DNA of 64,000 bases, from the NCBI GenBank assembly GCA_021810905.1, contig JAJZQH010000010.1:1-64000 (forward strand). The letters are read 5' to 3'. The position numbers were made by a program, and so were the translations under genes. This document shows positions 1-25,948 of this stretch, piece by piece; the first letter of the stretch is position 1; each line of letters begins with the position of its first letter. The DNA is from a bacterium (GTDB lineage: Bacteria; UBA10199; 2-02-FULL-44-16; JAAZCA01). Below the pieces are notes generated by a model that saw nothing but the letters and a program-made list of their open reading frames with translations, did no database searches and was not told the origin of the DNA.

Positions 1-1
1 C

Positions 2-97
2 CTTTGTGGCGAGCTTATTCTCGACCACGGCATTGCGCTAAAAGCGCTTTATTTCATTGAGACTGGTTTTCACACCAGATCTCATGGGGGAGGTTGA
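2..97 (+). CDS. Possible 3' end of a truncated gene
   Basis: The reading frame entering from the left edge stays open for 31 codons (ending in HGGG) and stops with TGA at 95-97. The other two plus frames and all minus frames close sooner. No domain can be recognised from so short a piece, and it may simply be noncoding sequence with an open frame. Confidence 0.2.
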   Translation, partial: LCGELILDHGIALKALYFIETGFHTRSHGGG

Positions 98-111
98 CTC
101 CTTTCATACCA

Positions 112-21782: not shown

Positions 21783-23066
21783 TCAGGGCAGTTTCGTATC
21801 CAGCTCCCTCGAAATCTTCATTGCACAGAATTTGGGGCCGCACATGGTGCAGGCGTGCTCGGGGACGTTGTTCGAGTGCGCGGCCTCCCAGATCTTGCGC
21901 GCGCCCGAGGGATCGAGCAGGAGCTCGAACTGGCGGTTCCAGTCGAGCGCGTAGCGCGCCCTTGAGAGCTCGTCGTCGCGCTCCCTTGCGCCGGGACGTT
22001 TGCGGGCGATGTCTGCCGCGTGCGCCGCGATCTTGTGCGCGATCACTCCGGCGCGGACCTGCGTGACGTCCGGCAGGCCGAGGTGTTCGGCGGGAGTGAC
22101 GTAGCAGAGCATGGAGGCGCCCGCGAACGCTGCCATCGTCCCGCCGATGGCGGATACGATATGATCGTGGCCGGCCGCGATGTCCGTCACCAGAGGGCCC
22201 AGCACGTAGAAGGGCGCTCCATCGCAGAGCTCGATCTGTTTCTTTACGTTCATCTCGATCTGATCGAAGGGTACGTGCCCGGGCCCCTCGACCATGGCCT
22301 GCACCCCGGCCTCGCGCGAGCGCCGCACCAGATCGCCCAGAGTGGCGAGCTCCGCGAACTGGGCCGCGTCGGATGCGTCGGCAAGACACCCGGGCCTGAG
22401 CCCGTCGCCGAGCGATAGGGAGATATCGTATTTACGGCAGATATCGAGCAGCCTGTCGAAGTGTTCGAAGAGGGGATTTTCCTTTCCGTTCTTCTGCATC
22501 CAGCGCGCAGTTAACGCGCCGCCGCGGGATACGATACCGGCAGTGCGCCTCGTGGCCAGGGGTACGTGCGCGGCGAGCAGCCCGCAGTGCACGGTGATGA
22601 AGTCCACTCCCTGTTCGCCATGGCGTTCGATCACGGAGAAGAGTTGATCGACCGTAAGATCCTCGATCTCGTCCACCATCTCCGCGGCCTCATAGAGCGG
22701 CACAGTGCCCACGGGCACCGGGCAGCGGCCGATGATTCCGCGGCGGATCGAGTCGATATCTGCGCCTGTGGAGAGGTCCATCACCGCATCCGCTCCGGCC
22801 TCAAGAGCCGCGGAGAGCTTGCAGAGCTCGCCGCCCAGGTCCGAGGAGAGCGCGGAGTTGCCGATGTTCGCGTTGATCTTGCAGGAGCAGCAATGTCCGA
22901 TGCCGATCGGCTCCAGGTTTGTGTGATTCACGTTCGCCGGGATGATGAGCTTTCCCGCCGCAACCTCTTTGCGAACGAACTCCGCGTCCAGCCGCTCCTT
23001 CGTCGCCACTTTGCGCATCTGATCCGTGACGATTCCCTTGCGTGCAAATTGCAGTTGCGTGGTCAT
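21783..23066 (-). CDS. thiC: Phosphomethylpyrimidine synthase
   Basis: ThiC is the radical SAM enzyme that rearranges AIR into HMP-phosphate for thiamine. The 427-residue protein ([17 protein letters not shown]...) includes [37 protein letters not shown] and the C-terminal CTMCGPKFC that binds the [4Fe-4S] cluster. The ATG at 23066 has GGGAAAGGA about eight bases upstream; an open frame runs further up but into repeat sequence. A 474-base gap with a long palindrome separates it from thiH. Confidence 0.96.
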
Positions 23067-23108
23067 TGAAATGTCCTTTCCCGTGAGTTCCTCGCCGTCG
23101 CCGAACGC

Positions 23109-23458
23109 CGTGCCACAGAGAACGCGCGGGCCCTGTCCCCTCGGCGGACGAGTCGACACCGAATAATTATCTGCTCGTGCAGCTAACGGTGTAGCATTTG
23201 CCTGGGCGTTCCCGTTCGTCCGGCGAGGGGACAGGACCAGCGCTTACTATGTGCCGCTGCGCAAGTCCAAAAAAAGACTCGTTATCAAGTGAAAAAACCA
23301 TTTGCGAAGTGGTACATAGCAAGCGGATTATCCCGCCCTCCCGCCGAATGAACTGGAACGCGATGGCTCGTACCAAACCGTTAGTCAAATCATCTGATAA
23401 TCACTCCGTGTCGACTCATTCGCCGGGAGGGCGGGGTGATCCGCGTCCTCTGTGGCAC
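23109..23458. repeat. Long imperfect palindrome between thiH and thiC
   Basis: About 350 bases form one foldback centred at 23283. Paired segments keep the same centre throughout. CGTGCCACAGAG (23109) pairs with CTCTGTGGCACG (23447); GTCGACAC (23152) with GTGTCGAC (23408); CTATG (23247) with CATAG (23315). GGCGTTCCCGTTC pairs with the complement near 23350. The arms are about 160 bases and mostly matched. Open frames inside (for example 73 codons on the minus strand) look incidental. RNA from it would be a very long hairpin splitting the thi message. Confidence 0.75.
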
Positions 23459-23540
23459 GGAGCAGCGTCCTCCGTGGCGCGAAATTCATTGGCGGCAATA
23501 TCCCCGTTCTCGGCAAAGGCGATTTACGCACATACGGCTG

Positions 23541-24626
23541 TTACCCCGAAAGCCTTGCGTCCCAGTCCTTCCATACCGGGTCGTAGCCTTTTTGTGCGAG
23601 CATCGCGGCTACTTCATCCGGTGCGCGCGCGTCCTCTAGATGGAATTGTTCCCCGCTCCCGGGTTCAGCCGTGTAGCCGCCGGGTCTTGTCACCGAGCCC
23701 GCGCTCATCTGCGTGATGCCCAGCGGCAGGAGACTGTCGCGCAGCGCTGCGGGCTCCCTCGTGGAGAGTACGATGCCTGCGTCCGGGAGCGAAAGCCTCA
23801 GCGCCACTATCATCTGCGCCAGCTCCCGGTCCGACACTGGATGCGGCGGCGTGAATCCCGACGCACAGTCGCGTATGCGGGGAACGCTTACGCTGATTGC
23901 CGCGCGCCAGTGCGTGCGCATGAGTTCGCGAGCATGTACGATGAGCGAGAGCGCTTCAGCCCTCCAGTCCGCGAGGCCGAGCAAAGCTCCGATTCCCAGA
24001 AATCGCATGCCAGCGCGGCCGGCCGCGTCGATCGCATCCACGCGCGAGCCGAAGATGCTCTTGGGGCCGGCCGGGTGCATCTCGCGATACGTCCCTTCGT
24101 CGTACGTCTCCTGATAGAGGGTCACCCCATCCACGCCCGCTGCCGCGAGCCTGCTGTATCCAGCCTCATCGAACGGCTGCACCTCCACCGAAAGGCCCGC
24201 TGCCAGGGGCCGGATCGCGCGCGCTATCTCCTCGAGGAGCGATATTGGCATGGCGCGCGGGCTTTCGCCTGCAACCAGCAGTAGGTGTCTGTGACCTTTT
24301 GCGATCACCGCCTTTGCCTCTTCTAGCGCCAGAGCGGGGGAGAGAGTTCTTCGTTCTATGCTGCTTTTAACGTTGAAACCGCAATAGCGGCAGGAGTTGA
24401 TGCATTCGTTGGAGAGATAGATAGGCGCGTAGAGTTTTACCGTCTTTCCAAAGCGCTGCCGCGTGAGCGCGTGCGCTGCCTGCGCCATCTCTTCAAGATG
24501 ATCAGCTGCTTCAACTGTGAGCAAGGAGGCTGCTTCGGCGAGCGAGAGGTCCATCGCGCCGAGGCGCCGCTGCACACGGCTCCACGGAAGGGATGGGCTA
24601 TTTTTGAGATCATCAAGAGGGTACAT
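23541..24626 (-). CDS. thiH: 2-iminoacetate synthase (tyrosine lyase)
   Basis: ThiH is a radical SAM enzyme that splits tyrosine to dehydroglycine for the thiazole of thiamine. The 361-residue protein has the cluster motif CINSCRYC (Cys75, 79, 82) after YAPIYLSNECIN, and LYQETYDEGTYREMHP, GLLLG-like GALLGL and PRI motifs of the family. The ATG at 24626 follows the thiG stop by 5 bases; a GTG at 24641 overlapping thiG is an alternative. Confidence 0.94.
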   Translation of the reverse strand: MYPLDDLKNSPSLPWSRVQRRLGAMDLSLAEAASLLTVEAADHLEEMAQAAHALTRQRFGKTVKLYAPIYLSNECINSCRYCGFNVKSSIERRTLSPALALEEAKAVIAKGHRHLLLVAGESPRAMPISLLEEIARAIRPLAAGLSVEVQPFDEAGYSRLAAAGVDGVTLYQETYDEGTYREMHPAGPKSIFGSRVDAIDAAGRAGMRFLGIGALLGLADWRAEALSLIVHARELMRTHWRAAISVSVPRIRDCASGFTPPHPVSDRELAQMIVALRLSLPDAGIVLSTREPAALRDSLLPLGITQMSAGSVTRPGGYTAEPGSGEQFHLEDARAPDEVAAMLAQKGYDPVWKDWDARLSG

Positions 24627-24630
24627 ATAG

Positions 24631-25407
24631 TCACTGATCACGTAAAAACCCCGTGAGTGGGCTCGATGCCTCGGCACATTCGCTTTCAGGAGCGCATCCT
24701 GCCTCGAATGCCGCTCGGCCCGCCTCAACTCCCTGCCGGAACGCACTGGCCATGCGCACAGGATCGTCGGCGACGGCTATAGCTGTATTCACGAGCACCG
24801 CGTGAGCGCCCATCTCCATTGCCTCTGCCGCGTGCGATGGAGCGCCGAGCCCTGCGTCGACAACGACCGGCACGCGCGCCTGCTCGATTATAATACGGAT
24901 GGAATCGCGCGTCTTGAGCCCGCGGTTGCTCCCGATGGGGCTGCCGAGAGGCATGACCGTTGCAGCGCCCGCGTCCGCGAGCCGCAGCGCCAGAACTGGA
25001 TCTGCATTCATATACGGCAGGACCGTGAAGCCTTCTTTTGCAAGTATCTCCGTCGCCTTGAGCGTTTCCACTGGATCGGGCAGGAGATAGCGCGGCTCGG
25101 GCACGACCTCGATCTTGACCCATGTCCCGAGCCCCGCCTCGGCCGCCAGTCGCGCGAACAAAATCGCTTCGTCTGCAGTGCGAGAGCCGGAGGTATTGGG
25201 GAGCAGCAGATACCGCTTGCGGTCGATGAAGCTCAGGATGTCGGTAGCAGGCGAGGTGAGGTCCACGCGCCGCAGCGCCACTGTGACGATCTCTGCGCCA
25301 GAGGCGTCGACTGCTGCACGCATCGTCTCGTGCGAAGAAAACTTGCCGGTGCCGATGAGGAGCCTGGAATGGAATTCCTTGCCCGCTATAATGAGAGATG
25401 TCTGCAT
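24631..25407 (-). CDS. thiG: Thiazole synthase
   Basis: ThiG condenses deoxyxylulose-5-phosphate, dehydroglycine and the ThiS thiocarboxylate into thiazole phosphate. The 258-residue protein ([23 protein letters not shown]...) shows LLPNTSG, the Lys-containing [20 protein letters not shown] and [13 protein letters not shown] of the family. The start at 25407 is chosen by homology in length; the frame is open upstream through repeat sequence. Confidence 0.95.
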
Positions 25408-25813: not shown

Positions 25814-25843
25814 AAAAAAAACGCACCCGAAAACGGGCGCGCG
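25814..25843 (-). terminator. Intrinsic terminator downstream of the TPP riboswitch
   Basis: On the minus strand CGCGCCCG and CGGGTGCG pair around a TTTT loop and run into eight U residues (25821-25814). It lies between the riboswitch and thiS, so it is the natural expression platform: TPP binding should favour termination. Confidence 0.8.
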
Positions 25844-25856
25844 TGTTTATTCTCCG

Positions 25857-25945
25857 CTTTCCTGCGCCAGGATTAACTGGATCAGGTTCCGAGGGTATCG
25901 GGCGCAGCGCCCGATTCTCAGCTTTCACGCACCCCTAGCGGTAAG
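25857..25945 (-). promoter_or_regulatory. TPP riboswitch (THI element)
   Basis: The minus strand shows the conserved core in order: AGGGGTGC, then GCTGAGA, then the variable stem CGGGCGCTGCGCCCG, ACCCTCGGAACCTGATC, and CAGTTAATCCTGGCGCAGG. These are the pyrimidine- and pyrophosphate-sensing elements of the thi box. It leads the thiS-G-H-C operon and is followed by an intrinsic terminator. Confidence 0.95.
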
Positions 25946-25948
25946 TGG

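Follow-up and report, generated by a model that had tools for sequence, protein, structure and literature searches.

A lineage-specific family of dispersed palindromic repeats in a bacterium of the phylum UBA10199, with a hairpin doublet between thiH and thiC

The thi operon and its intergenic palindrome

The window, a stretch of 64,000 nucleotides from the start of contig JAJZQH010000010.1 (assembly GCA_021810905.1; contig C4 in the numbering used here), carries on its minus strand a thi operon that has an upstream TPP riboswitch and includes thiH and, downstream of it, thiC, two genes whose identities are certain (Table 1). The thiH–thiC gap measures 471 bp, of which thiC retains about 38 bp as its own leader, and it harbors a foldback extending exactly from 23105 to 23463 around a center at 23284. 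The outer arms (23108–23126 and 23442–23460) are 95% complementary, and a 350-nt segment folds at −186.9 kcal/mol compared with −117.7 ± 5.2 kcal/mol for dinucleotide-preserving shuffles (z = −13.4), none of 100 shuffles folding as well. An earlier note, made from the letters of the window, had described a foldback at 23109–23458 with a common center at 23283, splitting thiH from thiC, non-coding, distinct from a classical terminator and possessing relatives, and it was right on all of these points.

What that description missed is the inner architecture, since each half of the presumed single palindrome is already a hairpin of its own, with arms at 23106–23151/23216–23261 and 23309–23351/23416–23458, respectively. 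The 350-bp palindrome is therefore two inverted hairpin units and not a single 350-bp repeat. The resulting doublet of 359 bp is made up of units of 159–161 bp with arms of about 46 bp, placed tail to tail on either side of a 39-bp spacer and belonging to two different subfamilies, B and A. The further claim of few net indels over 160-base arms holds literally, but only because units of two subfamilies face each other. The subfamily B unit is 87% identical to another member of its subfamily (L002b), and the spacer can be aligned, through TGATAAC and T-rich stretches, with that of a second doublet located on contig C19.

Across seven phylum genomes with thiH adjoining thiC, the gap between them (taken as the distance between the ends of homology to both proteins) is about 9–147 bp, so that an insert of this size is absent from these relatives. 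A search of 45 other phylum genomes, none of them a congener, found no unit; together with the short gaps, this argues that the 471-bp gap reflects a lineage-specific insertion of the doublet into the thi operon.

Table 1. Features of the window and tail-to-tail doublets of the repeat family. Positions given without a contig refer to the window.
Feature	Position	Strand	Remarks
Right end of IS-like element	1–109		sub-terminal repeat AAGGAGTCAACCTCC at 89–103, minus; identical end at C10 start, C14 end, C20 end
Right half of unit cut by IS-like element (the 'shorter relative')	110–156	−	runs into a further left-end copy to ~190
thiC, downstream operon gene	21783–23066	−	Pfam ThiC_Rad_SAM, 1e-184; NCBIfam thiC equivalog
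Unit 1, subfamily B	23105–23263	+	159-bp hairpin; ends at 23105 (left) and 23263 (right); model R1, 166.4 bits, E = 1.6e-36
Spacer, joins right ends of both units	23264–23302		39 bp
Unit 2, subfamily A, inverted relative to unit 1	23303–23463	−	161-bp hairpin; model R1, 171.6 bits, E = 9.9e-38
Remnant of a further left end (TCGCGCCACGGAGGACGCT)	23464–23482	−	like those adjoining about half of sister units
thiH, upstream operon gene	23541–24746	−	NCBIfam TIGR02351, 414 bits (cut-off 380)
TPP riboswitch, upstream in thi operon	25842–25946	−	Rfam RF00059, 74.4 bits
B-A doublets	thiH–thiC gap; C19:61160
A-C doublets	C2:140266; C20:156345; C12:270696; C10:110764
B-D doublet	C19:126403
A-D doublet	C9:185771

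A dispersed family of hairpin units

A DNA-level search of the organism's own genome (2.98 Mb in 21 contigs) returned 66 BLAST matches, and a model built from 24 aligned full units returned 73 on both strands, corresponding by a count of the model matches to some 45 distinct units spread over about 35 places, where they occur alone, truncated, nested or paired. The unit is an imperfect hairpin; three blocks (GTCGACAC.GA, CTAACG, and GCGTTCC.GTTC) are conserved in the loop that its arms enclose, and its ends (GCTCCGTG.../...CACTTCGCA) are imperfect terminal inverted repeats. Segment mapping distinguished four subfamilies, A, B, C and D, the arms reading GCCCTCCCGGCGAATGA in subfamily A and CCTGTCCCCTCGGCGGACGA in subfamily B, with subfamily C characterized by GTTCCTCCTCCC..CCGGCGGGACGAATCGACACC and the loop GCGCATATCAGCGGATATC. 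The genome is larger than those of its family relatives (1.8–2.2 Mb).

Doublets are arranged tail to tail and are mostly hybrids between subfamilies (Table 1), and several seemingly single units finish in what is left of a truncated partner. About half of the units are immediately preceded by a left end that is degenerate or truncated (13 of 27 at no more than six edits, against a mean of 0.25 in shuffled sequence). At C4:72044–72275 (L078) a C unit takes the place of an A unit's loop, which suggests that one hairpin has nested inside another, and a nested unit group on C10, just below position 68895 (L086, L060), contains a further long inverted repeat (CATGGCGAGAATTCATTTCAACATCCTGC... / ...GCAGGATGTTGAAATGAATTCTCGCCATG). 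The doublet at C19:61160–61510 shows the same B-spacer-A order and aligns with that of the thi operon from end to end, spacer included, at 80% identity; as a second full doublet within this genome, it leaves the observation of the earlier note unrefuted by the tests which that note had set, and indicates that the B-A doublet as a whole has been copied at least once.

An exact-pattern scan of GTDB genomes produced five single matches, in Bradyrhizobium, Planctomycetota and Gemmatimonadaceae, which are attributable to chance as they do not match the unit model, and the exact-pattern scan found no viral contig. The repeats are specific to this lineage within the sampled phylum. They constitute a real and well-defined family of dispersed palindromic repeats, previously undescribed, non-coding and hairpin-forming.

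Conservation of pairing and of the loop

Covariation was analyzed in the alignment of the 24 full units from this genome, in which 97.6% of stem cells are paired, a figure that drops to 38–47% in a control in which the partner was slid by 1–3 columns. Both sides have changed in 13 of 29 stem pairs, giving 67 double-changed cells, a level reached by none of 500 shuffles, and the unit trees require at least 25 (all columns) to at least 48 (unpaired columns only) double changes. Stem cells comprise 675 Watson-Crick pairs, four G-U, nine C-A and eight others. In an RNA stem one would expect G-U to be accepted on the transcribed strand, and the near-absence of G-U on either strand thus points to a constraint upon DNA pairing rather than RNA. 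Pairing is accordingly maintained at the DNA level, either through selection for a cruciform or a folded single strand, or through template switching from arm to arm, and the data fit both. Conservation is 92% in the core loop blocks and 89% in the stems, compared with 66% in the remaining loop, and the difference between the three blocks and the rest of the loop suggests that these blocks are recognized by a protein.

An IS-like element that cuts the units

Several contigs end inside units, hence the repeats did break the assembly. Eight junctions carry the repeat AAGGAGTCAACCTCC, and in all of them the unit is cut at a single point of the stem (GTTCGT^TCGGCGG), the C14 start being 2 bp off. 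These are the ends of an IS-like element, the left one (TTCTATGTAAGGAGTCAACCTCCAATCC) appearing at the ends of C6 and C8 and the starts of C13 and C14, and the right one (GGAGGTTGACTCCTTTCATACCATC) at the start of C4, which is the start of the window, as well as at the contig termini listed in Table 1. The shorter relative reported at 112–190 is accounted for by such a cut unit at the contig start; it is real and matches the unit model weakly (E = 0.022), but is what the IS-like element left of a unit, namely its right arm and end, rather than a complete small version.

The repeat AAGGAGTCAACCTCC is found at both ends of the IS-like element, with tips reaching about 3 and about 5 bp beyond TATG, and no target duplication is visible at the junctions. 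In insertion sequences of the IS1111 group the inverted repeats are sub-terminal, the tips beyond them are asymmetric, with lengths of 7 and 3 bp or of 6 and 3 bp, and insertion takes place at a fixed target without duplication (PMC11187229). The IS-like element resembles this group in its sub-terminal inverted repeats, short asymmetric tips and lack of visible duplication, the fit to the published tip lengths being approximate, and it is provisionally assigned to the IS1111 type from its ends, its body lying outside the assembly. The DEDD transposase models PF01548 and PF02371 found no match in the assembly, and the end sequence was found in none of the 45 other phylum genomes. Insertion at a fixed position within a palindrome is also a property of ISPsy8, ISPa11, ISPpu9 and ISPpu10, which insert specifically into REPs (PMC1525189). 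At one junction (C14:105–139; L080, L095) a 20-bp IS tip, TTCTATGTAAGGAGTCAACC, occurs as a tandem pair.

Relation to known palindromic repeats

Hybrid inverted doublets with complementary changes have been described for BIMEs (PMC2817692), and the present family shares with the BIME/REP systems, such as the Y and Z units of E. coli and the hybrid BIMEs of Stenotrophomonas, the inverted pairing of differing unit subtypes, compensatory changes that preserve the palindrome, and IS insertions into units. However, BIME/REP units are 20–40 bp long, usually number more than 100 and bear a GTAG or CGTC tag, whereas those described here measure about 160 bp, contain a long conserved loop, number about 45 and have other ends, and RAYT genes, which are described as always flanked by two inverted REPs (PMC2817692), have no unit-flanked counterpart in this genome. 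On these grounds, namely RAYT linkage, unit size and tag, the family is not filed as REP/BIME proper; it is BIME-like in arrangement and MITE-like in size.

It resembles small MITE-like mobile repeats (ERIC, Correia/NEMIS, RUP) in being non-coding, shorter than 200 bp per unit, dispersed, and bounded by terminal inverted repeats. The CIR repeats of Caulobacter (PMC2229807), whose 5' and 3' sections each form long stem-loops as do the units of a doublet, belong to another lineage and are likened to it by description, not by sequence. Intergenic palindromes of similar size include YPAL/RU-2 (about 168 bp) and ERIC/RU-1 (127 bp), from which the family differs in forming doublets of unlike subfamilies; YPAL similarly lacks TA ends and A+T richness, but is accompanied by target duplications of 3–26 bp (PMC2229807), of which none was seen at the units described here.

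Origin and possible mobility

The reading that best fits this evidence, to which we assign a probability of about 0.88, is that the thiH–thiC palindrome represents one copy of a non-autonomous palindromic element that is dispersed, lineage-specific, BIME/MITE-like and mobile. How the element moves is a separate question. The target duplications that the earlier note proposed to look for were not detectable at doublets or singles above a mismatched-flank control, and there were no TA ends. With many of the copies truncated or nested, spread by transposition is not separable from spread by recombination or by template switching during replication. A REP/BIME system in which the RAYT (Y1 HUH) transposases of this genome act on hairpins in single strands is conceivable but doubtful. 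Four Y1/RAYT-like genes are present (L031, L032, L033, L034), scoring 42–66 bits with NF047646 (cut-off 80), and the covarying hybrid pairs recall BIMEs, but no unit flanks any of these genes within a few kilobases, the nearest lying about 3.4 kb away, and size, copy number and missing tag set the units apart. L032 and L033 look like close paralogs, L031 has a DnaA-like C-terminal stretch, and no target repeats proper to these four genes were found. A derivation as MITEs from a DDE transposon with terminal inverted repeats, its autonomous parent lost or unassembled, is rather unlikely: the imperfect terminal inverted repeats and the ERIC/RU-2/RPE-type size (PMC2229807) agree with it, whereas the lack of visible target duplications, of TA ends and of A+T richness does not, and no longer element with such ends was noticed among the matches. 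For the mobilizer, the most economical guess is an enzyme that reads hairpins on single strands. A speculative reading, to which we give little weight, would make the unit a DNA substrate read by its structure, a 160-nt single-strand hairpin whose arms are free to change while remaining paired and whose loop keeps its three blocks fixed; some enzyme would recognize and move it with an attC-like logic but no integron, the tail-to-tail hybrid doublets being the moving form. True attC sites have core sites R''/R' (RYYYAAC and GTTRRRY) at their ends and are served by an integron integrase. Inspection of the alignment places the CTAACG of the units inside the loop and without the required preceding pyrimidines, and TIGR02249 yielded integrase matches below its cut-off only, as it likewise did in 14 of 14 control genomes, so that an integron-type system is not supported.

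Two further explanations concern the locus itself. The element might be a regulatory RNA of the thi operon, a very long transcript hairpin that attenuates, processes or stabilizes the thiC message. It does lie between two co-directional genes downstream of the riboswitch, its minus-strand RNA is predicted to fold at −204.9 kcal/mol as one hairpin (−160.4 kcal/mol as two local ones), and the comparable repeats NEMIS and ERIC alter mRNA stability (PMC2229807). Nevertheless, with some 45 copies at unrelated loci, relatives devoid of a comparable insert, stems almost free of G-U on both strands, neither a sigma-70 promoter nor an intrinsic terminator found on scanning the element, and the TPP riboswitch as the only Rfam family at gathering score, this role is improbable, although an incidental effect of the element on mRNA is possible. 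Rfam matches at relaxed thresholds were mostly to miRNA models picking up a long hairpin. A chimeric inverted join in the assembly, which the earlier note had also raised and which contigs ending inside units might seem to favor, can hardly be credited, because the C19 doublet is an independent, diverged copy with the same order and spacer, no duplicate, and the two halves belong to different subfamilies and are no mirror copies.

If the palindrome is indeed a copy of such a mobile element, the unit would fold as single-stranded or extruded DNA, and the folded hairpin with its conserved loop would be recognized by a host or IS-encoded enzyme that spreads it in trans. Changes in the arms would stay paired through selection on the DNA fold or template switching between arms, whereas the IS with IS1111-like ends already uses the units as places to land. 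A doublet inserted between thiH and thiC, and it would be as a by-product that it acts on the thi mRNA, be it by RNase III cleavage, Rho termination, protection of the thiH 3' end or uncoupling of thiC. It is plausible, to judge from NEMIS and ERIC (PMC2229807), that the doublet reduces or uncouples thiC expression.

Significance

The repeats add a new large palindromic family from a small and little-sampled phylum, and offer an unusually clear case of pairing upkeep at the DNA level, in which coordinated Watson-Crick changes, with almost no G-U, surround a conserved loop. They also provide a natural data set both for the spread of bacterial palindromic repeats without a linked transposase and for the use of such repeats as landing sites by IS elements, and the thi operon forms a simple test case of whether inserted palindromes uncouple co-transcribed genes.
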